The notes under the pieces: generated by a model
What the model was told of the DNA's origin: nothing
Seen by the model: the letters and a program-made list of their open reading frames with translations, nothing else
Database searches by the model: none
Translations under genes and position numbers: made by a program
Source: an uncultured Oscillospiraceae bacterium
GTDB taxonomy: Bacteria > Bacillota > Clostridia > Oscillospirales > Oscillospiraceae
Direction: 5' to 3'
NCBI GenBank assembly: GCA_947584295.1
Contig: CANPWM010000004.1
Span: 1 to 57,313, forward strand
Length of the DNA: 57,313 nucleotides
Shown here: positions 484 to 51,407 of the stretch, piece by piece
Numbering within the stretch: position 1 is the first letter of the stretch
How the letters are laid out: each line of letters starts with the position of its first letter

Positions 484-1824
<1,341 letters not shown>

Positions 1825-1839
1825 AAGTTATATATTTTA

Positions 1840-1868
1840 GAGGGGGGCTTGTCCCCCCCTCCTTTTTT
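1840..1868 (+). terminator. rho-independent terminator of gdhA
   Basis: A G-rich arm (AGGGGGG) and its C-rich complement, separated by CTTGT, are followed by a run of Ts, 15 bp after the gdhA stop codon. Confidence 0.85.
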
Positions 1869-1950
1869 ATAGAAGAGGAGATATCAGGCGGGAAAACCGA
1901 GCCTTTCCTGGAAAGCAACCGAAAATTGACAGATTGTAACGCGGATGCGG

Positions 1951-1979
1951 TTGCTTTTTTTCGGAAGATGGTATATTAT
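1951..1979 (+). promoter_or_regulatory. candidate promoter of the XRE cassette
   Basis: TTGCTT at 1951-1956, a 17-nt spacer and TATTAT at 1974-1979. The predicted start falls immediately before the ribosome site of the XRE gene, giving a very short leader. Confidence 0.5.
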
Positions 1980-2000
1980 AACATGAAAGGAGATAAAGAG

Positions 2001-2528
2001 ATGTTATCGGAAAAACTGATCGCGCTCCGAAGGGAGAAAGGTCTTTCCCAGGTCGAGCTGGCCGAGGAGCTTAAAGTCTCGCGCCAAGCTGTCTCCCGAT
2101 GGGAAACGGGCGAGGCCGCGCCGAGCCTGGAGAATTTAAAGTGCTTAAGAGATCTGTACGACGTGTCTCTTGATTATCTGGTGTGCGACGTGGAGAGGAC
2201 GGAGCAGCCCGCTCCGCCGCCGGAGATCGAGCCGGAAACCGTGGCGGTGGAGAGCGTCGCCGCGCCCACCCGCTCACCCGGCGTACTCCTTTCCCTCGCC
2301 CTTTCCTCCGCCGCGCTTGCCATCGCCGTTCTGACGGCAGTTCTTCTCCTGTTCCGCCCGGCTTCTATATCCAAAGCGCCCCCAGACCCGCTTGACGGCC
2401 TTGGCACCTCCGAATATGTTACAGGGGAGAACGGAGAGAAACTTGAAAAAATAAACCTTGACAATTACAACGTGTCCTTTTTTTCGTTCAAACCTCTTGA
2501 ATCAATAACGGAAGAGTCGTCTGAATAA
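2001..2528 (+). CDS. XRE-family transcriptional regulator with a C-terminal membrane segment
   Basis: This is a 175-residue protein. Residues 1-65 form a helix-turn-helix of the Cro/CI type (LSEKLIALRREKGLSQVELA, then KVSRQAVSRWETGEAAPSL), followed by a proline-rich linker, one hydrophobic helix at about 108-130 and a short polar tail. The ATG at 2001 is chosen over an in-frame upstream start at 1926 because AAAGGAG sits 8 bases before it and the HTH starts directly there. The architecture suggests a membrane-tethered regulator whose tail is outside the cell, next to a secreted protein gene that could relate to its signal (inference). Its target genes are unknown. Confidence 0.85.
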   Translation: MLSEKLIALRREKGLSQVELAEELKVSRQAVSRWETGEAAPSLENLKCLRDLYDVSLDYLVCDVERTEQPAPPPEIEPETVAVESVAAPTRSPGVLLSLALSSAALAIAVLTAVLLLFRPASISKAPPDPLDGLGTSEYVTGENGEKLEKINLDNYNVSFFSFKPLESITEESSE

Positions 2529-2529
2529 C

Positions 2530-2919
2530 ATGAGAAAACTGTTAGGAACAATAGCCATTATTATTTCATTATCGTTTTGCCTTGGAATCCCGGTCGCAGC
2601 CGTTGAGGCAAGGTCTCCGGGAAGTGTTATGTCAACAGCCAGATTCAGCTTTGCCGTTCCGGCCAACTCCTGCAAACAGGAAAGCACTGGATTCAACCTT
2701 GATGCAGGGGAGAAAGTGACCGTAAAGGGATCTGTTTCTCCAATTTCCGCAAACGTGAAATACGGGCTTGTCACTCCAGACGGTATGTTTTGCGGTATTT
2801 CCGCCAAAGACGGAATCCTTGATTATACATTTACCATCGAAAAAAGTGGAACATATTGTTTTGCCGTCTTAAACAACTCCTCCGTCATCGTCAGCGTGAG
2901 CGGGTATATCAACTACTGA
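2530..2919 (+). CDS. small secreted protein of unknown function
   Basis: This 129-residue protein has an N-terminal Lys/Arg, a hydrophobic core (LLGTIAIIISLSFCLGIPVAA) and a likely signal-peptidase site after VAAVEA. The mature part of about 100 residues alternates short polar and hydrophobic stretches, as in a beta-sandwich, and contains three cysteines. I do not recognise the family. It starts one base after the XRE stop codon, so translation is probably coupled. No strong ribosome site is visible apart from GGAAGAG upstream. Base composition is more AT-rich than in the flanking nitrogen genes. Confidence 0.7.
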   Translation: MRKLLGTIAIIISLSFCLGIPVAAVEARSPGSVMSTARFSFAVPANSCKQESTGFNLDAGEKVTVKGSVSPISANVKYGLVTPDGMFCGISAKDGILDYTFTIEKSGTYCFAVLNNSSVIVSVSGYINY

Positions 2920-3081
2920 ATGTTCACAGCAGCAGCGGCGGAGTGTAAAAAACGGCGTGGATGGGCGGATCCGGCGCACGATCATGGGAGGTGATAGGCG
3001 ACACATTTTTATTCGGTTCGGGAATGTACGTCAGAAGGCTTACAGGATCATTAAGTCAAATACAGAAAAGGCGGTGTAGTT

Positions 3082-3546
3082 ATGTCAAAATCGTGGAGGA
3101 TCTTCTGGTTTTCGATATGCGTAGTTATAGAGGCAATTATGCTTGCCTATGTTCTGAAATATCCAAATATGATCTATCCCTTTTCACATGTTCATAAGTT
3201 GGGCTACGAGGAATGGGTGGCGACTATCGCCCAAAAGGAACGCTATCCCGACTATCGCGCGGCTTACGATTTCGCTCGTTATTTCCGCATCAGCGTCGCA
3301 GGTATATTGACTGGGGGTATTGTCCATTCATTGATCGCGTCCAGACGGACCGGCCTGAATATAAGAAAAATGATTGGCGGCCTCATCATACTTCTTTGCT
3401 ATATCCCCGTCTTCTTTATAACAAAATATGTTAAATTGTTTTATGCGTGGATGCTCTTCGCACCCGTTCAGTTTGTTTTGTTTGTTCTTTTATTTATGCT
3501 TCTGTGCGACTGGCGTCAGGCGGCGAATGCCACTGCTGTGCAATAG
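3082..3546 (+). CDS. small integral membrane protein of unknown function
   Basis: This 154-residue protein has hydrophobic segments at about 5-24, 72-87, 95-115 and 120-142, so probably four membrane helices. A charged loop between the first two contains the YPDYRAAYDFARYFRIS stretch. I do not recognise the family. It lies 160 bp after the secreted-protein gene in the same lower-GC stretch and may be part of the same acquired cassette. The ribosome site is weak (AAAGGCGG). An overlapping 78-codon frame starting at 2961 looks like chance. Confidence 0.6.
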   Translation: MSKSWRIFWFSICVVIEAIMLAYVLKYPNMIYPFSHVHKLGYEEWVATIAQKERYPDYRAAYDFARYFRISVAGILTGGIVHSLIASRRTGLNIRKMIGGLIILLCYIPVFFITKYVKLFYAWMLFAPVQFVLFVLLFMLLCDWRQAANATAVQ

Positions 3547-3626
3547 GAAATAATGCGGTCAGCCCATGCGCGCCGTCGTCGTCGCGGAAGTCGCGATACC
3601 TCGCCTCCGCGCAAGCGCGAAGGCTC

Positions 3627-3763
3627 AGTCGCGGACTTCGCTCCGCCTCTCCCCACCGGGCAGCGGCCCGGCGGGGCCCCATTAGCATACTTGCGCGACA
3701 AAAGGGATTTTTTCCGACGTACATGCCGCCGGAAAAAATATCAAATTTGCGTTTTTTGACAAA
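3627..3763 (+). repeat. dispersed bipartite-hairpin repeat, copy A
   Basis: This non-coding element has two parts. A GC-rich stem-loop has outer arms GTCGCG 3628-3633 and CGCGAC 3694-3699 and an inner CCCCACCGGGC/GCCCGGCGGGG stem. After AAAAGGGA comes a second hairpin with T-rich and A-rich arms (TTTTTTCCGACG / CGCCGGAAAAAA), then a tail ending TTTGCGTTTTTTGACAA. About 110 bp are nearly identical to the copy at 28389-28498 in inverse orientation. Further GC-rich palindromic sequence (3565-3625) lies to its left. It sits between the membrane-protein gene and glnA. Confidence 0.8.
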
Positions 3764-3767
3764 CTGC

Positions 3768-3798
3768 GCTGGGGGCGGACTGCCGCCCCCAGCTTTTT
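3768..3798 (+). terminator. rho-independent terminator downstream of repeat A
   Basis: GCTGGGGGCGG and its complement CCGCCCCCAGC, separated by ACTG, are followed by TTTTT. It isolates glnA from the upstream cassette. Confidence 0.8.
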
Positions 3799-3898
3799 AT
3801 CTCTTTCCACCATTGAATAATTTGCACGAACAAAACGGGCGGATTGCAAATCCACTATGTATAACTCTCCAAAAAGACGAAATTTGCAATTTTTACGG

Positions 3899-3927
3899 TT
3901 GACATATGGCATTTGCGGCCATATAAT
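3899..3927 (+). promoter_or_regulatory. glnA promoter P1 (perfect consensus)
   Basis: TTGACA at 3899-3904, a 17-nt spacer and TATAAT at 3922-3927 match the sigma-A consensus exactly. Transcription would start near 3934, only a few bases before a terminator hairpin. Confidence 0.85.
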
Positions 3928-3937
3928 AGCGCGTGTA

Positions 3938-3979
3938 AGGGCGATGGTGCTTTTCCGGGAGGAAGCCATTGCCCTTTTT
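3938..3979 (+). terminator. intrinsic terminator/attenuator in the glnA leader
   Basis: AGGGCGATGG 3938-3947 pairs with CCATTGCCCT 3966-3975 (one G-U pair), with further pairing inside the loop, and is followed by T3975-3979. Its position directly after P1 parallels the gdhA leader. It would end P1 transcripts at about 45 nt unless relieved. Confidence 0.65.
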
Positions 3980-3997
3980 GTGAATGTATGATATAAT
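3969..3997 (+). promoter_or_regulatory. glnA promoter P2 (extended -10)
   Basis: TGATATAAT carries a perfect -10 at 3992-3997 with the TGN extension, and TTGCCC at 3969-3974 stands 17 nt upstream. P2 lies beyond the leader terminator, so it would give glnA expression that does not depend on antitermination. Its -35 overlaps the terminator stem. Confidence 0.6.
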
Positions 3998-4043
3998 CCC
4001 ATCACTGTATATCCTTATTCTATAAGCCGAAAGGAGCTTTCCC

Positions 4044-5375
4044 ATGAGTAAGTACACCAAGGAAGACATTATCCGTTTAGTGGAGGAGCAGGACATCGAG
4101 TTTATCCGTATGCAGTTTACGGACATCTTCGGCCAGCTCAAGAACGTGGCCATCACCAAGAGCCAGATCCAGAAGGCGGTCAACAACCAGATCATGATCG
4201 ACGGAAGCTCCATTGAAGGCTTCACCCGTATCCACGAGTCCGACCAGTACCTGTATCCCGATCTGGACAGCTTCACCGTTCTGCCCTGGCGGCCCCAGTA
4301 CGGCAAGGTGGCGCGGCTTATCTGCGACGTCTATAACCCCGACGGCACCCCCTTTGTAGGCGACCCCCGCGGCGTTTTGAAGAAGGCGCTGAAGCGGGCC
4401 GCCGATATGGGGTACAGCTTCAACGTGGGCCCCGAGTGCGAGTTCTTCCTCTTTGAGACGGACGACGAGGGCCGTCCCACCACCAAGACGGGCGACGAGG
4501 CCGGTTACTTTGACCTGGGGCCTCTCGATCACGGCGAGGGCACCCGGCGGGAGATCTGCCTGAACCTGGAGGCCATGGGCTTTGAGATCGAGGCCAGCCA
4601 CCATGAGGTGGCCGCCGGTCAGCATGAGATCGACTTCAAGTATGACGAGGCCCTCAGCGCCGCCGACAAGATCATGACCTTTAAGCTGGCGGTCAAGACC
4701 GTGGCCCAGAAGAACGGCCTCCACGCCACCTTTATGCCCAAGCCGGTGTTCGGCATCAACGGCTCCGGTATGCACACCAATATGTCCCTCTTTAAAGACG
4801 GCAAGAACGTGTTCTACGATCCCAGCGACGCCCGGGGCCTTTCCAAAGAGGCGTACAGCTTCATCGCGGGCCTGCTGGCCCACGTCCGGGGTATGGCCGC
4901 CGTCACCAACCCCCTGGTCAACTCCTACAAGCGGCTGGTGCCCGGCTATGAGGCCCCCTGCTATCTGGCCTGGTCCGCCTCCAACCGCTCCGCCCTTATC
5001 CGTATCCCCGCCGCCCGCGGGCAGTCCACCCGCGTGGAGCTGCGTTGCCCCGACCCGTCCTGCAACCCCTATCTGGAGCTGGCCTGCTGCCTGGCCGCCG
5101 GTCTGGACGGCATCGAGAAGGGCATGACGCCCCCGGCGGAGATCACCGAGAACATCTTTGCCATGGATCGCAAGACCCGCCACGCCCACGGCATACACTC
5201 CCTGCCCGGGAACCTCAGCGAAGCCATCGACGAGATGGAGAAAGATGAGCTTATTTGCCAGACACTGGGCGAACACGTGGTAGAGCAGTACATCCAGGGC
5301 AAGCGCAAGGAGTGGGACGCTTACCGTACCTACGTCTCCGACTGGGAGATCGACAAGTACATCGTCACCTATTAA
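4044..5375 (+). CDS. glnA: glutamine synthetase type I (alpha subgroup)
   Basis: This 443-residue enzyme condenses glutamate and ammonium to glutamine using ATP, as a cytoplasmic dodecamer. Visible motifs include DGSSIEGF and ESDQYLYPD in the beta-grasp region, the metal-binding GPECEFFLF segment near residue 130, the [14 protein letters not shown] block, the [10 protein letters not shown] stretch near 238, and [18 protein letters not shown]. The 443-residue length and short C-terminus match the Gram-positive GSI-alpha form, which is controlled by feedback rather than by adenylylation (family knowledge). AAAGGAG precedes the ATG. Two promoters and a leader terminator lie upstream, and an ANTAR regulator gene follows. 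Confidence 0.97.
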
Positions 5376-5381
5376 AACCGG

Positions 5382-5493
5382 CTTGAAGGGCCGGAACGGC
5401 CTTTCAAGGCCAAGGGATCTTTCGCAGGGCGCAGCCTGGCGAAAAGCAGTTGATTTTGGATCTTGGGGCGGGCTTGACGCCCGCCCTGATTTT
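5382..5493 (+). terminator. structured glnA-ANTAR intergenic region with terminator
   Basis: Three stems occur in a row: CTTGAAGGGCCG with CGGCCTTTCAAG around 5382-5406 (triloop GAA); a nested structure with TTTCGC/GCGAAA arms around 5420-5445; and GGGCGGGC 5466-5473 with GCCCGCCC 5479-5486 followed by TGATTTT. The last looks like an intrinsic terminator 19 bp before the ANTAR gene start, so expression of that gene could itself be attenuated or depend on readthrough. Confidence 0.6.
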
Positions 5494-5511
5494 GTTGGGG
5501 GGTGAAAACCC

Positions 5512-6042
5512 ATGATCCGCACAGTCGTCGCCTTTGAGAAGGACGATTCCCGCAACAAGATCGCGGATATGCTGGAGAGGGCCGGTGTGACGGTGCGCTT
5601 CCGGTGCCGGTCAGGCGCGGAGGTGCTGAGGGCCGTCAAGACCATGGGCTCCGGGGTGGTCATCTGCGGCCACAAGCTGGCGGATATGCCGGCGGAGCAT
5701 CTGGCCCACGATCTGCGCGGGCAGGCCAAATTCCTGGTTCTGGCCAAGCAGGCGCAGCTTGAGCTTCTCAGCGACCCGGATATCTTTAAGCTTCAGATAC
5801 CCATCTCCGCCGCGGAGTTGCGGGGGAGTGTTAATATCCTTATCCAATTGGACGAGATCTCCTCCCGGGATCAGATCCCGCAGCGAAGCGAGGAGGAGCG
5901 GCACGTCATCGCCAAGGCCAAGGAGCTTCTGATGGAGTCCCGCGGCTTTACCGAGGCCCAGGCCCACAAGTATTTGCAAAAGCGCAGTATGGAAACGGGC
6001 GTGAAGCTGGCGGAGACGGCCAGGCAGATACTTGAGATGTAG
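5512..6042 (+). CDS. ANTAR-domain RNA-binding response regulator with degenerate receiver
   Basis: This is a 176-residue protein. Residues 1-110 fold-match a receiver domain (MIRTVVAFEKDDSRNKIADML), but the position of the phospho-acceptor aspartate reads VVICGHKL, so the usual Asp appears to be missing. Residues 118-176 match the ANTAR domain (AKAKELLMESRGFTEAQAHK, then LQKRSMETGVKLAETARQIL). ANTAR proteins bind nascent RNA and prevent terminator formation (NasR, AmiR, EutV families). Its position between glnA and gltBD makes nitrogen-gene leaders its likely targets (inference). The classical twin hexaloop RNA motif was not found here. A GGGGGGTGA ribosome site precedes the start. Confidence 0.88.
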   Translation: MIRTVVAFEKDDSRNKIADMLERAGVTVRFRCRSGAEVLRAVKTMGSGVVICGHKLADMPAEHLAHDLRGQAKFLVLAKQAQLELLSDPDIFKLQIPISAAELRGSVNILIQLDEISSRDQIPQRSEEERHVIAKAKELLMESRGFTEAQAHKYLQKRSMETGVKLAETARQILEM

Positions 6043-6051
6043 CCTGCAATC

Positions 6052-6156
6052 TTGTCAAAAGCACAGATTCGAGCATTTTTCCGGCGGCGGGTACGCCGGA
6101 AAAATATCCCGCGCGTTCCCCTTGCCGGGAAAAGCCCCGGCGGGCTTTTTCCGACA
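6052..6156 (-). repeat. dispersed bipartite-hairpin repeat, copy D
   Basis: Read on the minus strand, this has the same architecture as the copy at 51201-51310: CTGTCGGAAAAAGC with an adjacent stem, AGGGGAA, a hairpin with arms TTTTTCCGGCG/CGCCGGAAAAA (perfect here), then CTCGA and a tail ending TTTTGACAAG. It fills nearly the whole gap between the ANTAR gene and gltB, so it would be present as RNA structure in any readthrough gltB transcript. Confidence 0.7.
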
Positions 6157-6179
6157 GTCCACACAAGGATGTGATGGTT

Positions 6180-9100
6180 ATGAAAGATTTGAACCAACAG
6201 CGCAAGGCGGGTCTTTACGATCCGCGCTTTGAGCATGACGCCTGCGGCATCGGCGCTATCGTGAACCTGCGGGGCGTGAAGTCCCACAGGACGGTGGACG
6301 ACGCTCTGAAGATCGTGGAGCGTCTGGAACACCGAGCCGGGAAGGACGCCACAGGCGAGACCGGCGACGGCGTGGGCATCATGCTCCAGGTGAGCCACAG
6401 CTTCTTTAAAAAGGCCGCCGCCAAGATCGGCGTTGAGCTGCCCGGCGAGCGGGACTACGGCGTGGGAATGTTCTTCTTCCCCCGGGATATCGTCAAACGC
6501 TCCCAGGCCATGCGGATGCTGGAGATCATCGCCGCCAAGGAGGGGCTGGAGCTTTTGGGCTGGCGCGATGTGCCGGTGGATCCCTCCATTCTGGGGAAGA
6601 AGGCCCTGGACTGTATGCCCTACATCGCCCAGTGCTTTATCAAAAAGCCGGACAGCGTGGAGCGGGGCCTGCCCTTTGACCGGCTCCTCTACGTCATTCG
6701 CCGGGAGTTTGAGCAGTCCAACGACAACACCTATGTGCTGAGCCTCTCCAGCCGCACCGTGGTCTACAAGGGTATGTTCCTGGTGCATCAGCTTCGCCGG
6801 TTCTATCCCGATCTGCAAAGCCCGGATTACAAGAGCGCCATCGCCCTGGTCCACTCCCGCTTTTCCACCAACACCAACCCCAGCTGGGAGCGGGCGCACC
6901 CCAACAGGCTTATCCTGCACAACGGAGAGATCAACACCATACGCGGCAACATCGACCGTATGGTGGCCCGGGAGGAGACGATGCACTCGGAGATACTGGA
7001 TCCGTACATGGATCGGATCCTGCCCGTGGTGAACCCCTCCGGCTCCGATTCCGCCATGCTGGACAACACCCTGGAATTTTTGATGATGAGCGGCATGGAT
7101 CTTCCCATGGCCGTGATGCTCCTCCTGCCCGAGCCCTGGCGGCACTCCGACGCCGGGGAGAGCGAGAAGCAGGATATGTACCACTATTACGCCACCATGA
7201 TGGAGCCCTGGGACGGCCCCGCGGCTGTCCTGTTCTCCGACGGCGACAGGGTGGGCGCTGTCCTGGACCGCAACGGCCTCCGGCCGGCCCGGTACTACGT
7301 CACCGACGACGACACGCTGATCCTCTCCTCCGAGGTGGGTGTCGCCGACGTGGACGAGAGCCGCGTCAGGGAAAAGGGGCGGCTCCAGCCGGGGCGTATG
7401 CTGCTGGCGGACACCCTGGAGAAGCGCATCGTCACCGACGAGGAGCTGAAGGCACGGTACGCCGCCTCCAAGCCCTACGGCGAGTGGCTGGACGCCAATC
7501 TGCTGAAGCTCCGCGATCTGCCTATCCCCAACAAGAAGGTGCCGATCCACACCCAGGATCAGCGGGACCGGCTCTACAAGGCCTTCGGCTACACCTACGA
7601 GGACGTGCGGAGCATCATTCTCCCCATGGCCCGCACCGGGAGCGAGCAGACGGCCTCCATGGGTACGGATATCCCCCTGGCGGTACTCAGCGAAAAGCAC
7701 CAGCCCCTGTTCAGCTACTTCAAGCAGCTCTTCGCCCAGGTCACCAATCCCCCCATCGACGCTATCCGGGAGGAGATCGTCACCGATACCACCGTCTATG
7801 TGGGTTCCGACGGGAATCTGCTGGAGGATAAGCCGGAGAACTGCCGGGTGCTGGAGATCCACAACCCCATTCTCTCCGGCGTTGATATGCTGAAGATCCG
7901 CTCCATGTCCAAGCCGGGCTTTAAGGTGGAGACCGTCTCCATCCTCTACTACAAGAATACCCCCCTGGAGCGGGCCGTCGAGCGGCTGTATATCGCCTGC
8001 GACAGAGCCTGGCGCGGCGGCGCCAACATCATCATTCTCTCCGACAGGGGCGTTGATGAAAACCATGTGGCGATCCCCTCGCTGCTGGCTGTCTCCGCCA
8101 TGGAGCAGTATCTGATCCGCACGAAAAAGCGCACCGCCGTTTCCGTCATTTTGGAGTCCGGCGAACCCAGGGACGTACACCATTTCGCCACGCTCTTAGG
8201 CTACGGCGCACGGGCCGTCTATCCGTATCTGGCCCACGAGTGCATCGCCGAGCTTATTGAGAAGTCCATGCTGGACAAGGACTTTTACGCCGCCGTGGAC
8301 GACTACAACGCCGCCGTCCTGCACGGCATCGTGAAGATCGCCTCCAAGATGGGCATCTCCACCATACAGTCCTACCAGTCGGCCCAGATCTTTGAGGCGG
8401 TGGGCATCCGGCAGGACGTTATCGACAAGTATTTTACCAACACCGTCTCCCGGGTGGGAGGCGTGGGCCTTGAGGAGATCGGCGAGGGCGTGGAATACCG
8501 CCACTCCCACGCCTTTGATCCCCTGGGGCTGGGGGTGGATCCGACGCTGGACTCCACCGGCACCCACTCCCTCCGCTCCGGCGAGGACAAAGAGGATCAT
8601 ATGTATAATCCCCTCACCATTCTGACCCTCCAGAGGGCCACCCGTGAGGGCGACTATCAGCTCTTTAAGAAATATTCCGAGCTTGTGGATTCCGACGCTG
8701 TCCCCCACACCCTGCGGGGCCTTCTGCGCTTTGACTACCCGGAAAAGGGCGTTGACATCGACGAGGTGGAGAGCGTGGACAGCATCGTTCGCCGCTTCAA
8801 GACCGGGGCCATGTCCTACGGCTCCATCTCCCAGGAGGCCCACGAGTGTCTGGCGGTGGCTATGAACACCCTCCACGGCAAGTCCAACTCCGGCGAGGGC
8901 GGCGAGCTGCCGGAACGGCTGGGGACGATCCGGGGTTCAGCCATCAAGCAGGTGGCCTCCGGGCGCTTCGGCGTTACCAGCGAATACCTGGTATCCGCCC
9001 AGGAGATCCAGATCAAAATGGCTCAGGGCGCCAAACCCGGCGAGGGCGGGCTGCTCCCCGGCGGGAAGGTGTACCCCTGGATCGCCAAGACCCGCTATTC

Positions 9101-10709
9101 CACCCCCGGCGTGACGCTGATCTCTCCCCCGCCCCACCATGACATCTACTCCATCGAGGATCTGGCGCAGCTCATTTACGACCTGAAATCCGCCAACCGT
9201 TACGCGGACATCGCCGTGAAGCTGGTGAGCGAGGCGGGCGTGGGCACCATCGCCGCGGGCGTGGCCAAGGCGGGCGCGCAGACGGTGCTGATCTCCGGCT
9301 ACGACGGCGGCACCGGCGCGGCCCCCAAGACCAGTATCCACGACGCGGGCCTGCCCTGGGAGCTGGGCGTGGCCGAGACGCACCAGACGCTTGTGCAAAA
9401 CGGCCTGCGCCGCCGCGTCCGCATCGAGGCCGACGGCAAGCTGATGACGGGCCGGGACGTGGCTATCGCCTGTATGCTGGGGGCGGAGGAATTCGGCTTC
9501 GCCACAGCGCCCTTAGTCACCCTGGGCTGTGTGATGATGCGCGTCTGCAACCTGGACACCTGCCCCATGGGCGTCGCCACCCAGAACCCGGAGCTGAGAA
9601 AACGCTTTTGCGGGAAGCCCGAATACGTGATGAATTTCATGCGTTTCGTGGCCCAGGAGCTGCGGGAGATCATGGCGAGCCTTGGCATACGCTCGGTCGA
9701 TGAGCTTGTGGGCCGCACGGATCTTTTGAAATTCCGTGAAAAGCAGGTCACCCACCGGGCGGCCAGCGTGGATATGTCCGCCGTGCTGGGCGGGGCCTAT
9801 TCCGTCCCCCAGCACTTTGAGCCGGAGGCCGTCTACGACTTTCAGCTGGAAAAGACCGTGGATCTGAGCAAGCTCCTCCCCGGCCTCGATCTCCAGAAGA
9901 AGTCGGGCCGCATCAGCGTGGAGGTGGGCAATACGGATCGGGCCTTCGGCACGATCTTAGGCTCTGAGATCACAAGGCTCTACAAAAACACACTGCCGGA
10001 GGACGCCTTTACGGTGGATTGCCGGGGCGCGGGCGGACAGTCCTTTGGGGCCTTTATCCCCAGGGGGCTGACGCTGAACCTGACAGGCGACTCCAACGAC
10101 TACTTCGGCAAGGGCCTCTCCGGCGGCAAGCTGACGGTGAAGCCCCCGGAGGGCGTGAAATACAGGGCCTGTGAGAACATCATCATCGGCAACGTGGCCC
10201 TATACGGCGCCACGGCGGGCAAGGCGTTCATCGCCGGGCTTGCCGGGGAACGCTTCGCCGTCCGCAACTCCGGCGCGTACGCCGTGGTGGAGGGCGTGGG
10301 CGACCACGGCTGTGAGTACATGACCGGCGGGCGCGTGGTGGTCCTTGGCCCCACGGGCAAGAACTTCGCGGCGGGTATGTCCGGCGGCATTGCCTACGTT
10401 TGGGACGGCAAGCGGGATCTCTACAAGCGGGTGAACAAGTCCATGGTGGAGCTGGAGCCGGTCACGGAGAAGCACGACATCGAGGAGCTGCGCGCGCTTA
10501 TCGAGGAGCATCTGAAGGCCACCGGCTCACAGCGCGCCAGGGAGATTTTGGACGATTTCAGCCGGAACATCGGACTCTTTAAGAAGATCATGCCCCGGGA
10601 CTACGACCGTATGCTCCGGGCCATCAGCCAGTTTGAGGAGCGCGGCATGAGCCACGAGGAGGCCGCCGAGGAGGCCTTTTACCTGATCACGAGAGGGGGC
10701 GCGCGGTAA
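6180..10709 (+). CDS. gltB: glutamate synthase (GOGAT) large subunit
   Basis: This protein of about 1509 residues transfers the amide of glutamine to 2-oxoglutarate, yielding two glutamates. The class II glutaminase domain starts at FEHDACGIG, where Cys22 should become the N-terminal nucleophile after propeptide removal. The central and FMN-binding synthase domains follow (GAMSYGSISQEAHE, GEGGLLPGGKV, ISGYDGGTGAAPKTS), then the iron-sulfur cysteines CVMMRVCNLDTCPMG near residue 1117, and a C-terminal glycine-rich beta-helix region. The ATG at 6180 is preferred to GTG 6171 because AAGGAT at 6165-6170 gives normal spacing. It overlaps gltD by one base (TAATG). Confidence 0.97.
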   Translation: MKDLNQQRKAGLYDPRFEHDACGIGAIVNLRGVKSHRTVDDALKIVERLEHRAGKDATGETGDGVGIMLQVSHSFFKKAAAKIGVELPGERDYGVGMFFFPRDIVKRSQAMRMLEIIAAKEGLELLGWRDVPVDPSILGKKALDCMPYIAQCFIKKPDSVERGLPFDRLLYVIRREFEQSNDNTYVLSLSSRTVVYKGMFLVHQLRRFYPDLQSPDYKSAIALVHSRFSTNTNPSWERAHPNRLILHNGEINTIRGNIDRMVAREETMHSEILDPYMDRILPVVNPSGSDSAMLDNTLEFLMMSGMDLPMAVMLLLPEPWRHSDAGESEKQDMYHYYATMMEPWDGPAAVLFSDGDRVGAVLDRNGLRPARYYVTDDDTLILSSEVGVADVDESRVREKGRLQPGRMLLADTLEKRIVTDEELKARYAASKPYGEWLDANLLKLRDLPIPNKKVPIHTQDQRDRLYKAFGYTYEDVRSIILPMARTGSEQTASMGTDIPLAVLSEKHQPLFSYFKQLFAQVTNPPIDAIREEIVTDTTVYVGSDGNLLEDKPENCRVLEIHNPILSGVDMLKIRSMSKPGFKVETVSILYYKNTPLERAVERLYIACDRAWRGGANIIILSDRGVDENHVAIPSLLAVSAMEQYLIRTKKRTAVSVILESGEPRDVHHFATLLGYGARAVYPYLAHECIAELIEKSMLDKDFYAAVDDYNAAVLHGIVKIASKMGISTIQSYQSAQIFEAVGIRQDVIDKYFTNTVSRVGGVGLEEIGEGVEYRHSHAFDPLGLGVDPTLDSTGTHSLRSGEDKEDHMYNPLTILTLQRATREGDYQLFKKYSELVDSDAVPHTLRGLLRFDYPEKGVDIDEVESVDSIVRRFKTGAMSYGSISQEAHECLAVAMNTLHGKSNSGEGGELPERLGTIRGSAIKQVASGRFGVTSEYLVSAQEIQIKMAQGAKPGEGGLLPGGKVYPWIAKTRYSTPGVTLISPPPHHDIYSIEDLAQLIYDLKSANRYADIAVKLVSEAGVGTIAAGVAKAGAQTVLISGYDGGTGAAPKTSIHDAGLPWELGVAETHQTLVQNGLRRRVRIEADGKLMTGRDVAIACMLGAEEFGFATAPLVTLGCVMMRVCNLDTCPMGVATQNPELRKRFCGKPEYVMNFMRFVAQELREIMASLGIRSVDELVGRTDLLKFREKQVTHRAASVDMSAVLGGAYSVPQHFEPEAVYDFQLEKTVDLSKLLPGLDLQKKSGRISVEVGNTDRAFGTILGSEITRLYKNTLPEDAFTVDCRGAGGQSFGAFIPRGLTLNLTGDSNDYFGKGLSGGKLTVKPPEGVKYRACENIIIGNVALYGATAGKAFIAGLAGERFAVRNSGAYAVVEGVGDHGCEYMTGGRVVVLGPTGKNFAAGMSGGIAYVWDGKRDLYKRVNKSMVELEPVTEKHDIEELRALIEEHLKATGSQRAREILDDFSRNIGLFKKIMPRDYDRMLRAISQFEERGMSHEEAAEEAFYLITRGGAR

Positions 10710-14981: not shown

Positions 14982-15575
14982 ATGCAAAGACTATATATCG
15001 TCCGCCACGGCGAGCCGGACTTCCCCGGCGGGGTATGGCTCTGCATCGGCTCCGGCACCGACCTGCCCCTGGCGCTCAGGGGCAGGGAGCAGGCCGCCGC
15101 CCTGCGGCCCTATTTTGAGGCCCGTCCCGTGGCCGCCCTCTGGGCCAGCCCCTTGAACCGGGCCGTGGAGACGGCGTCGCTGATGACCGGGGGGAAATAT
15201 ACGATCCATACCCATCGCGGCCTGCGGGAAGCCTACATCGGCGAGTGGGAGGGCCTGTCCCCGTCGGAGATACGCCAACGCTTTCCCGGCTCGTGGGAGA
15301 AACGGGAGGCCGATATGTCCATTCCCCCCGGCGGCGGGGAGGACTACGGCGCGGCGGGCGCGCGCTTTGAGGCCGCCCTGCGGGAGATTTTAGCCGCCGC
15401 CCATGGGGACGTGGCCGTGGCCGCCCACCAGGCCGTCACCTGCGGTTTTCTCTGCCGGCTCACCGGCACGCCCCTGTCCCGCTGGCCCGATTTCGCCCAC
15501 GACTACGCCACCGTGACGGAGCTTGCCTTTGAGAACGGCGCTTTTTCGCTTCTGAGCTTCGGGAACAGGACGTAA
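14982..15575 (+). CDS. histidine phosphatase superfamily protein
   Basis: This 197-residue protein opens with the phosphohistidine motif YIVRHGEPDF. It continues with the arginine-containing WASPLNRAVETASL motif near residue 60, the acidic REAYIGEWEGL near 85, and the second catalytic histidine in VAVAAHQAVTCGFLC near 145. This is the phosphoglycerate-mutase-like/CobC-like fold that hydrolyses phosphate monoesters. No cobalamin genes are nearby, so a specific alpha-ribazole phosphatase call is not justified. Its TAA stop is directly followed by the MITE-like element. Confidence 0.88.
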   Translation: MQRLYIVRHGEPDFPGGVWLCIGSGTDLPLALRGREQAAALRPYFEARPVAALWASPLNRAVETASLMTGGKYTIHTHRGLREAYIGEWEGLSPSEIRQRFPGSWEKREADMSIPPGGGEDYGAAGARFEAALREILAAAHGDVAVAAHQAVTCGFLCRLTGTPLSRWPDFAHDYATVTELAFENGAFSLLSFGNRT

Positions 15576-15734
15576 TACTAATATCTATTTAAAAGGAGAC
15601 ACCGAGCGGCGAGGATTTTTCGTGTCAGGCAAGGAAGATGCCACAGGGAATACTGTATGTATTCCCAAGGCGGCTGACGCAGCATGGCGCGAAAAAGACC
15701 GGCGCGAATGTCTTATTTTAATTAGATATTAGTA
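15576..15734 (+). mobile_element. MITE-like element with 19-bp terminal inverted repeats
   Basis: The 159-bp segment starts TACTAATATCTATTTAAAA (15576-15594) and ends with its inverse complement at 15716-15734 (18 of 19 positions match). TAA occurs directly outside both ends (15573-15575 and 15735-15737) and may be a target duplication; the left one is the phosphatase stop codon. Inside is a hairpin, GGGAATAC/GTATTCCC, and GC-rich sequence with partial dyad symmetry (TTTTCGTG against CGCGAAAA). There is no coding capacity. Transposition would need a transposase in trans. Confidence 0.75.
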
Positions 15735-15797
15735 TAAATCCCGCCTGTCCGAGACAGGCTCATGCTGACATCGTCAAATCTGAAGGAGGTAATTTTC

Positions 15798-23256: not shown

Positions 23257-23485
23257 GCCGTCCCGGCGGCCCGTACGGCGTATGAAGATAGATTTTCCGT
23301 AAATCGGAAGGCGGGCCGGCCGGGTGTCCGGCCCGTACGGGGGATTGTGCGTTGGACGAAATGATCAATTTATGGGGAAATCGTTGCGTATGACGTTGGG
23401 CCGCCGTGGGCGGCGGCCCGTACGGCGTTGTGGGGTGGCCGTTCAGAAATTCGATACACGGGCCGGCCAGGTGTCCGGCCCGTAC
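23257..23485. repeat. duplicated 146-bp array of GC hairpins
   Basis: Two kinds of hairpin alternate. Type 1 (GGCGGCCCGTACGGCG) occurs at 23265-23280 and 23411-23426, 146 bp apart. Type 2 (GGCCGGCCGGGTGTCCGGCC then CGTAC) starts at 23314 and, with one change, at 23461, 147 bp apart. All four end in CCCGTAC. The sequence between units has diverged more than the hairpins. No reading frame is supported. It occupies the recN side of the argR-recN gap. Confidence 0.75.
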
Positions 23486-23538
23486 AGAACATTATGCGTA
23501 ATAAATCAGGCTTCCGTATAATCGGAGGGAAGGGTTTG

Positions 23539-27777: not shown

Positions 27778-28326
27778 TTATTTCTTTTTGCCGGGGGTCT
27801 TGAAGTGGGGCGCAAGAGACATGAGCTTCCCCACCATAAAAATGATCTGGGTGTTTTTTGTCAGGGCGACGCTCTTGCCCACCGCCTTGCCCCCGATGGT
27901 CAGTCCCGACACAACGCCGGTCACCAGCAGGGACATCACGATACTGTTCAGGCCGAAATCCCGCGTCAGGTTCCCGGCGATGGTGGCCGCCGTGGCGCCG
28001 GAGATGATGCCGGAGATATCGCCCACCACGTCGTTGCAGACGGAGCTGACGCGCTCGGCCTTCCGTAAAAGCCGCAGGGCCTCCCTGGCCCCCCGCTCCT
28101 TGTGGGAGGCCATGGCGTGAAAGGGCGTCTCGGTGGCCGAGGTGACCGCCACGCCGATGATATCAAAGAGGATCCCCAGGGCGATAAAGGCAAAGAGCAG
28201 CACAAAGGCCACGATATACCCCGCCCCGTCCAAGATCTCCGAGCTTGTCAGCGAGAAGATCACCGACATGGTGACGGACAGTACCACGATCTCTATAAGC
28301 CATTTTACGTCAGCTTTTTTCTTCAT
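27778..28326 (-). CDS. oapA: OLE RNA-associated membrane protein OapA
   Basis: This 182-residue integral membrane protein has hydrophobic stretches at about 8-28, 33-60 and in the C-terminal half (IMSLLVTGVVSGLTIGGKAV), and a conserved-looking cytoplasmic segment (ATETPFHAMASHKERGAREA, VSSVCNDVVGDISGIISGAT). The start at 28326 follows AGGGGAAGG; an upstream in-frame extension to 28500 lies inside the repeat and is rejected. Its place between a large structured RNA and dxs, and the CNNM/CorB-like character, match OapA, the protein that anchors OLE RNA in the membrane and is linked to magnesium homeostasis and stress tolerance (published family knowledge). Identity is inferred from context and resemblance. 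Confidence 0.78.
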   Translation of the reverse strand: MKKKADVKWLIEIVVLSVTMSVIFSLTSSEILDGAGYIVAFVLLFAFIALGILFDIIGVAVTSATETPFHAMASHKERGAREALRLLRKAERVSSVCNDVVGDISGIISGATAATIAGNLTRDFGLNSIVMSLLVTGVVSGLTIGGKAVGKSVALTKNTQIIFMVGKLMSLAPHFKTPGKKK

Positions 28327-28362: not shown

Positions 28363-28388
28363 ACCCCATTCCCTATCATTTTTAATAC

Positions 28389-28498
28389 TTTTTCCGGCGG
28401 CATGTACGTCGGAAAAAATCCCTTTTGTCGCCCAAGCGTACAAATGGGGCCCCGCCGGGCCGCTGCCCGGTGGGGAGAGGCGGAGCCAAGTCCGCGAC
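28389..28498 (-). repeat. dispersed bipartite-hairpin repeat, copy B
   Basis: This is the inverse complement of copy A (3627-3740) over about 110 bp at roughly 90 per cent identity by eye. It includes CCCCACCGGGCAGCGGCCCG, the CGACAAAAGGGA link and the TTTTTTCCGACG...CGCCGG hairpin. The TTTGCGTTTTTTGACAA tail of other copies is missing. It separates the OLE RNA 3' end from oapA. Confidence 0.8.
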
Positions 28499-28514
28499 AA
28501 CGAGGCGGCGGCGA

Positions 28515-29148
28515 ACAGGATAAATCTTGCGGCTTAGGTCGGGTTGGTTTTCCCCCGGCGCTGCCTTCCGTTGCCGTGAAGGCGGTTTCCCATTAAAGCG
28601 CCGTTCCGGCCGTCGCCGGCCCGGTCACCCGATCGCCACTGAGACCGCACTGCAATCCCCTGTTCGCCCGATGGACAGCCTAGATGTTTTCCATGGCGAA
28701 GCGAAACGTCTCTTTAGCCTCTTTTGCAGGAAATATTTCAAGAGGATATCGCTCCACACCCTGGCCGGGGCGTGAAGCGCGTAGCTCCCCTATCCGCAAG
28801 ACCCACTCAAGGCAGGCTACTCTGCACACAGCACAGGTTGAGTCAAACAAGTCTCTTCCATTCAGTCGCACCGCAATACAGGTTTAAACCCCGGGACGTA
28901 ATCAGGTCGCGTACCGCGAAAGGGAGTACGCCTGACCACAACTCCGGGTCTCCACACCAGCAGGGTCGGGGCCGCTATGCCATTAGCGGTCGCCCTGAAG
29001 ATGCAGACGCAATTTGCGCCTCCCTCCAGCACCCACCCGGAACTGGGCGTTCCAAGCAGACACAAGAGGCTTCAACGATGTGCCCTTCAAAGGATTTTTA
29101 GGCCCTTCTTAGGAGACGTCAGCTCCGACTAGGATACTGCGCCGCCGA
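28515..29148 (-). ncRNA. OLE RNA (large structured non-coding RNA)
   Basis: About 630 nt on the minus strand run from a strong promoter (start near 29148) to about 28515, with no plausible reading frame. They lie directly upstream of the OapA-like gene and dxs, the diagnostic neighbourhood of OLE RNA, which is about 600 nt long. The 3' part is rich in stem-loops (for example ACGGCAACGGAAGGCAG and AAACCAACCCGACC). OLE forms a membrane ribonucleoprotein with OapA. The 5' end is set by the promoter; the 3' end is approximate. A match to the Rfam OLE model would confirm this. Confidence 0.78.
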
Positions 29149-29154
29149 TTTGAA

Positions 29155-29183
29155 ATTATAACTGATTTTCGCCGCGTTTTCAA
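29155..29183 (-). promoter_or_regulatory. sigma-A promoter of the OLE RNA
   Basis: On the minus strand, TTGAAA (29178-29183), 17 nt, and TATAAT (29155-29160). Confidence 0.85.
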
Positions 29184-37327: not shown

Positions 37328-37357
37328 AAAAGAGGACTTGGCTTCCCAAGTCCTCTT
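37328..37357. terminator. bidirectional terminator between rodA and dapF
   Basis: AAAGAGGACTTGG and CCAAGTCCTCTTT form a 13-bp stem around CTTC. A/T tracts flank both sides, so it can act for both convergent genes. Confidence 0.8.
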
Positions 37358-37362
37358 TACGT

Positions 37363-37407
37363 TTGTCAAAAAACTTAAATCGAGATTTTTCCGGCGGCCC
37401 GCGCCGG
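37363..37407 (-). repeat. truncated bipartite-hairpin repeat, copy E
   Basis: TTGTCAAAAAACTTAAATCGAG followed by TTTTTCCGGCG...CGCCGGA matches the tail and second hairpin of the repeat family (inverse orientation relative to copy C). The first-hairpin half is absent. It sits in the rodA-dapF gap. Confidence 0.55.
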
Positions 37408-37432
37408 ATAGGCCGGACGCCTTGCCCGCCCG

Positions 37433-51177: not shown

Positions 51178-51200
51178 GTGCGGGAGGGAAAAAACTTTAT

Positions 51201-51310
51201 CAGCCTGTCGAAAAAGGCCGTTGGCCTTTTTCGACAAAGGGGAATGTGCGGATTTTTTCCGACGTACATGCCGCCGGAAAAAACCTCGATTTGCGTTTTT
51301 TGACAACCTG
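51201..51310 (+). repeat. dispersed bipartite-hairpin repeat, copy C, with flanking direct repeats
   Basis: A first hairpin TGTCGAAAAAGGCC/GGCCTTTTTCGACA (perfect 14 bp, loop GTT) is followed by AAGGGG and a second hairpin TTTTTTCCGACG/CGCCGGAAAAAA, then CCTCGATTTGCGTTTTTTGA and CAACCTG. The two ends are near inverse complements (CAGCCTGTCGAAAAA against CAGGTTGTCAAAAAA). AAAAACTTTAT stands directly outside on both sides (51190-51200 and 51311-51321). Apart from the two promoters, the remaining 51115-51474 gap only has AT-rich filler. Confidence 0.8.
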
Positions 51311-51407
51311 AAAAACTTTATATTTTTCTTTTTCCCGCTTTGGGGGCCACAAGATGTTGTATGCCCGGGGGAAGGAAAAACTTTTTATTAAATTTCTGCA
51401 AAATTGA

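Follow-up and report, generated by a model that had tools for sequence, protein, structure and literature searches.

Long palindromic target duplications are recorded in ISfinder for some members of the IS1182 family of insertion sequences (ISs). REP/RAYT repeats have a GTAG-type tetranucleotide beside the hairpin and a Y1 transposase, class C group II introns insert after terminators, and the pneumococcal BOX repeat is modular with an RNA-like structure; to our knowledge, BOX, RUP and SPRITE have other sequences than the repeat described here and no IS1182-type ends. This repeat, which is very probably a MITE family whose insertion duplicates a whole terminator hairpin, resembles the IS1182 family, and IS1272 in particular, in the transposase family, the inverted-repeat ends and the targeting of stem-loops or terminators, as covered in the portions of PMC4923244 and PMC5678879 drawn on here. 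According to these portions, the target stem-loop of IS1272 is deleted or replaced without duplication, unlike the stem-loop targeted by the present element, which is duplicated; stem-loop duplication is one branch of the model proposed in PMC5678879, and one IS1182 member is listed with 4-bp repeats in the part of PMC3196728 used. From the abstract of PMC5896051, Coxiella QMITE1 and QMITE2 are similar in having about 50 MITE copies per genome, two size forms and MITE-derived small RNAs, and QMITE2 in lying mainly in 3' UTRs and intergenic regions, but they have 2-11-nt duplications, QMITE2 contains a GTAG REP, and the abstract makes no mention of terminator duplication. The pneumococcal BOX, RUP and SPRITE are likewise short intergenic repeats, SPRITE being terminator-like (in the cited parts of PMC3049150 and PMC10969869), but belong to another host. 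The DDE-type ends and long target duplications of the present element speak for a mechanism other than that of REP/RAYT repeats, while strong covariation in Firmicutes non-coding DNA is shared with OLE and other structured RNAs of Rfam.

The window analysed is a stretch of 57,313 nucleotides, contig 4 of the 2.35-Mb genome of an uncultured Oscillospiraceae bacterium in 123 contigs; the assemblies of this genome and of its relatives are all fragmented. A preliminary description of the window had proposed an undescribed dispersed repeat family of five copies, A to E, either MITE-like or RNA-structured. It is clear that the family exists and is larger, given that the exact pattern of one of its hairpins, H4, occurs at 45 places genome-wide, and at 69 when up to 3 mismatches are allowed, with 0 for the reversed-pattern control in both cases. 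The search of the genome and its relatives that had been proposed was performed with a covariance model, R1, built from 40 diverse copies. It gave at least 73 matches among 82 candidates scored in the own genome, matches in 31 of 34 genomes of the genus, and matches in 97 of 200 genomes of the family, spanning 64 of 106 genera; these family-level matches are biased to the same H4, since the source copies of R1 were fetched by the exact H4 core. The family explains at least 50 intergenic repeats in each of 19 of the 34 genus genomes, copy counts being lower bounds because at most 40, 82 or 14 candidates were scored per genome. Within the window, R1 recognises copies A, B, C and E with E-values no higher than 9e-11 and gives a sole other match at E 0.091, all R1 E-values being rough.

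The titles of the named loci that carry the element are, among the loci listed, nearly all Oscillospiraceae or Clostridia. For L104-L183 (80 listed of 108 stretches) the identity of H4 is by construction, as these were chosen by the exact H4 core; L127 (Spirochaetaceae), a chance-like match, was kept in the gene-orientation and end/duplication counts. The exact H4 core was also seen on two contigs of a viral collection (L292 and L293), the only 2 such stretches there. The 20 family-level copies that were fetched are by eye without the part of the element that carries GTGCG and hairpin H2, many have a fifth hairpin beyond H4, and duplicated terminators were seen by eye in several of them (L300, L302, L304, L309 and L311). 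A known Rfam RNA is ruled out as the identity of the element, given that in a scan of the window and eight loci its neighbour OLE was the sole family above the gathering score, a score that none of the 20 weak matches in the scanned loci reached. A description of the element was not found in Rfam or in literature searches of open-licence papers, so that its status as undescribed is not contradicted. The kind of element, a MITE, is already known; its target behaviour and its conserved core set it apart as a variant.

The element has a modal length of 203 bp, with a short form of about 110 bp and a long form of about 305 bp, carries no transposase gene, and has terminal inverted repeats. Its plan, taken from full-length copies elsewhere in the own genome and read on the strand of the upstream gene, is H1, H2, H3 (P3), H4 and right end. 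The left end CAGNCTGTCGAAAAA doubles as the 5' arm of hairpin H1, which is followed by the conserved stretch AAGGGGAACGTGCGG, by hairpin H2, whose loop is TGCG in 86 of 96 hairpins, and by CCTGCYGT; then come the long hairpin H3 (P3), AAAAGG, H4, a short stretch and the right end TTTTTTGACANNCTG. The GTGCG anchor lies at its standard distance in 98 of 164 copies examined. Short forms, such as B and E, retain H1 and H4, while long forms contain a nested GC-rich module within H3. This module (window 3576-3690 and about 28438-28500) was also seen by eye in another MITE-like family (L214) and after OLE in G016, a 94%-identical relative, and is apparently an independent mobile or recombining module.

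Copy A (3563-3766, plus strand, left limit approximate; model match 3581-3738) is a 5'-truncated long form that consists of part of H3 with the nested module (3576-3690, plus strand, limits approximate), H4 and the right end TTTTTTGACAAACTG, and a terminator-type hairpin adjoins it on the right (3769-3792, plus strand). Copy C (28388-28500, minus strand) is also 5'-truncated, with H3 containing the nested module and H4, so that in both A and C the module is present and the left part is lost; positions 3628-3745 of copy A are 93% complementary to 28381-28498 of copy C. Copy B (6047-6161, minus strand) is a short form of H1 and H4 between an ANTAR-domain gene and gltB, and at its site the element was seen by eye in none of 12 aligned relatives. 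Copy E (51201-51310, plus strand) is a complete short form of H1 and H4 that runs from CAGCCTGTCG to TTGACAACCTG, and copy D (37359-37410, minus strand, right limit approximate) is a right-end fragment beside a terminator-type hairpin (37330-37357). H2 is absent from every window copy. Copies A, B, C and E of the preliminary description are thus real, while D amounts to a broken right end, and a decayed sixth copy, F (about 5376-5446, plus strand), with H1 and H4 after glnA, had been missed. The single bipartite architecture that had been seen does not hold, because the truncation of A and C makes their supposed first stem H3, while that of B and E is H1, which forms the left end of the element; B, moreover, is without the long GC-rich insert assigned to it. 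The hairpin with T-rich and A-rich arms and its tail were correctly recognised at A and E, while at B and C the hairpin stands alone or with a changed tail. The supposedly perfect second stem of D is no evidence of selection, since the H4 of this copy, which the model did not find, has lost its A-rich arm.

Several neighbours of these copies deserve mention in their own right. The OLE RNA (RF01071, 421.5 bits) occupies 28489-29161 on the minus strand, with copy C at its 3' end; the gene downstream of it (27781-28326, minus strand) has a weak likeness to CNNM (PF01595, below the cut-off), and in L165 OLE is likewise directly followed by an element. A nitrogen cluster with gdhA, glnA, the ANTAR-domain regulator (PF03861) and gltB lies at 484-10709, and in relatives glnA has a conserved hairpin-like leader ahead of it. 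A second MITE-like family, with ends ATACTAATATCTA...TAGATATTAGTAT, is present at 15575-15735 and in L214 (G031, after glnA), L117, L168 and L267, where an IS1182-type IS lies inside one copy. Repeated hairpins around GGGCCGGCC..GGTGTCCGGCCCGTAC are found at 23295-23499, and similar GTACGGGCCGCCG hairpins in the glnA gap of L215 and L235.

The ends and target duplications were counted in 160 copies, 69 from the own genome and 91 in named loci. Both inverted ends CAGNYTGTCRAAAAA were found by fuzzy match in 64 of them, and 27 of these 64 have direct flanking duplications of 11-35 bp, compared with 0 of 64 when the flanks were swapped. In 26 of the 27, the duplication is 19-35 bp long and folds as a hairpin at -12.1 kcal/mol or lower; the remaining one is copy E, with 11 bp (AAAAACTTTAT, 51190-51200 on the left and 51311-51321 on the right). 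The other 37 two-ended copies have no direct duplication by the flank test, some of them having inverted loops and others unlike hairpins on each side. Terminator loops that are inverted within an unchanged stem were seen between flanking copies (L016, L070 and L093) and between relatives (L023 and L315), and such loop inversion may explain flanking hairpins that are alike except for the orientation of the loop (L016, L070 and L093).

Unoccupied sites point in the same direction. The site of copy E is empty in G016, in which sites B and D, the latter with its orthologous hairpin, are also without the element and site C, after OLE, holds another insert; for copy A, no relative gave an alignment of the left flank. 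For eight other sites, the flanks were joined with one hairpin retained and sought in six relatives, and for 5 of the 8 an uninterrupted counterpart with a single hairpin is present in one or more of them at 70-89% identity (L017 in G016; L021 in G022; L023 in G031, and also in G016 and G022; L066 in G022; L067 in G016). Among the remaining three, L030 has a match on the left only, L043 a match that spans the hairpin and 11 nt of the left flank, and L065 split pieces in relatives, which suggest insertions at the same site there. A class C group II intron was rejected as an explanation, given that no intron match was found in the window and eight loci and that the target is duplicated, where none would be expected for an intron. 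In the gap after glnA, relatives carry a full, partial, minimal or no element at the position orthologous to copy F and, because of these graded forms, some copies seem to be old and slowly decaying; repeated insertion or exchange between copies is also possible.

The ends of the element are shared with a member of the IS1182 family. IS1182-family transposases above the NF033551 cut-off were found in 8 of the 34 genus genomes; the same search gave no IS1182 transposase match in the own genome bin or in G014, G019, G023 and G027, which have 56-82 copies each, all of these being fragmented assemblies. The IS ends were examined by script at 16 of the 30 transposase loci, and CAGNYTGTC-type ends were found at 8 of the 16, the other 8 having different or no recognised ends. 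Five ISs of about 1.5 kb (L265-L269) have the ends CAGNYTGTCAAAAAA, while L263, L264 and the deleted copy L287 have the end variant GTCGACAAAC. A complete duplicated palindrome flanks 7 of the 8 ISs with CAGNYTGTC-type ends, L287 having unlike flanks. Whole-hairpin duplication is nonetheless no rule of the IS1182 family, because of the 8 of 16 loci with other or no ends and of the member with 4-bp repeats in the part of PMC3196728 used. The partner IS carries an IS1182-type DDE transposase (477 aa in L266, with Pfam DDE_Tnp_1_6, DUF772 and DDE_Tnp_1), for which the element, at about 203 bp, is too short, and the element is therefore at most a non-autonomous derivative of the IS1182 family. Up to 16 nt are identical between the ends of the MITE and those of the IS, and when 41 copies were compared with 6 ISs, all matches were 12-17 nt long and the best lay in the ends. 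Derivation of the core from the IS is rejected, as nothing convincing is common inside in this comparison; the suspicion that the copies are remnants of a known insertion sequence is thus borne out at the ends, which are of IS1182-family type, and not within the core. Sister genomes contain ISs of matching ends and duplication style and none was found in the own bin, where mobilisation of the element in trans is proposed on the evidence of the sister genomes. A second IS1182 type, with ends CAGTCTGTCGACAAACC, was observed in L263 and L264, and the MITE copies in L106, L113, L169 and L170 have, by eye, similar GTTTRTCWACARTYT ends, giving the impression that the core has changed its partner transposon.

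The core was studied in a reduced set, in which the 98 copies with the standard anchor were brought to 47 at less than 88% similarity, to 41 for the folding, strand and IS comparisons by dropping six without a standard H1, and to 40 in the alignments by dropping L110. Across these 40 diverse copies, 53 pairs make up the structure of the minus strand; 96.5% of cells are paired, and in 39 of the pairs both partners have changed. On each of five measures all 500 shuffles score lower, with the structure derived from this alignment itself and relatedness ignored in the shuffles, and slid versions of the structure are 38-58% paired. The plus-strand consensus has 47 pairs, 35 of them with double changes. 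Both parts of the earlier proposal, MITE-like and RNA-structured, are therefore supported, the former by terminal inverted repeats, target duplications and empty sites, and the latter by strong covariation.

The two strands are not equivalent. On the strand described, A·C and G·T mismatches number 7 and 3 in H1, 12 and 9 in H2, and 24 and 7 in H3 (non-redundant set, Watson-Crick-only scoring), compared with 19 and 19 in random stretches. In H4, the third pair from the loop is A·C in 17 of 19 family-level copies (H4 was located in 19 of 20), while the flanking stem varies; the mismatch regarded as a deviation in A and C is thus the conserved state. Conserved A·C mismatches correspond to G·U pairs on the complementary strand. 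In RNA folding, 40 of 41 copies are more stable as the minus strand (mean of -97.2 versus -85.1 kcal/mol), as are 39 of 41 without H4, while shuffles lean the opposite way. The RNAalifold consensus energy is -72.3 for the minus and -51.8 for the plus strand, and a 181-nt stretch of one copy, from the right terminator to part of H2, gives z = -9.4 and -5.8, respectively. This asymmetry depends strongly on a small number of conserved columns, in P3 and H4, which is evidence for one ancestral design and not for many independent events. The structure therefore favours the strand opposite to the one described. The preliminary description had also not noted that copies B and C lie on the minus strand of the window. 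Because pairing is better on the minus strand, the RNA strand, if any, is the one antisense to the upstream gene. The reading to which we tentatively lean, at somewhat under an even chance, is that the core is a MITE-borne structured RNA, which would be antisense to the gene upstream and have its 3' end at H1.

Other readings, which may overlap with this one, have to be weighed. The core may belong to a purely selfish MITE, whose hairpins are kept only for the transposase or for the DNA, as cruciform or single strand, and from which no RNA is made or used. This is conceivable, if doubtful: the mobility of the element is clear, target cruciforms are part of the published model for IS1272 (in the part of PMC5678879 used), and a scan of 98 copies found no conserved minus-strand promoter, the best-mismatch counts being like those of shuffles, with a perfect match in 3 of 98 copies against 0 shuffled. 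Against it, the compared ISs are without such a core, so that the transposase seems not to need it, and the asymmetry between A·C and G·U is not favoured by a two-strand cruciform, although single-stranded DNA of one strand is possible. It is rather unlikely that the copies are domesticated terminators, kept by their hosts as H1 terminates the upstream gene while the remainder decays. The remnants of H1 and H4 at glnA in several relatives and the persistence of H1 as a hairpin while its sequence changes are in line with this, but H2 and P3 covary as strongly as H1.

Gene orientation, taken from codon-usage gene calls, bears on the remaining alternative. A copy and its upstream gene share a strand in 54 of 62 cases in the own genome and in 61 of 77 in the named loci (7 more in each set being without a called gene), but only tandem pairs are informative, because convergent contexts count as same-strand either way; these are 24 to 6 in the own genome (p = 0.0014) and 22 to 13 in the named loci (p = 0.18). 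A plus-strand 3'-UTR element, acting in the mRNA of the upstream gene on stability or termination, would agree with these counts and with the persistence of graded orthologous copies after glnA, but is improbable given the weaker tandem excess of the named loci, the worse folding of the plus strand in 40 of 41 copies and the nearly fixed A·C in H4.

Returning to the MITE-borne structured RNA, the sequences lead us to propose the following course of events. An IS1182-type transposase would recognise the ends CAGNYTGTCRAAAAA and move the non-autonomous element in trans, and insertion at the two feet of a palindromic transcription terminator would leave the hairpin duplicated on both sides. H1 is on paper a two-way intrinsic terminator, which would make insertions beside genes tolerable, and its function as a working terminator is a model prediction, as is transcription of the core. 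Between the ends, in the minus-strand order H4, P3, H2 and H1, the core is predicted to form an RNA with H1 as its terminator-like 3' end. More speculatively, and with a probability that we consider low, the element would be a bacterial counterpart of SINEs, that is, a structured small-RNA gene, antisense to the gene whose terminator was invaded and ending at its own H1, that is spread by borrowed IS1182-type ends. Under this SINE-like reading, the conserved unpaired C/U-rich stretches CCUUUU and GUUCCCCUU could pair with ribosome-binding sites.

For the IS1182 family, the repeats are evidence from nature that a whole terminator can be duplicated by IS1182-type transposition, compared with its replacement in the consulted portions of the IS1272 papers (PMC4923244, PMC5678879). 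Their many copies offer a set for testing the function of a structured, possibly RNA, core. If the SINE-like reading is true, the ends of whichever IS1182-type transposon was resident would have allowed a rise to at least 50 copies per genome in the genus and spread through much of the family, and every full-length copy would represent a candidate small-RNA locus. If the core is transcribed, a mobile element would have distributed a small-RNA gene across a family of gut bacteria.
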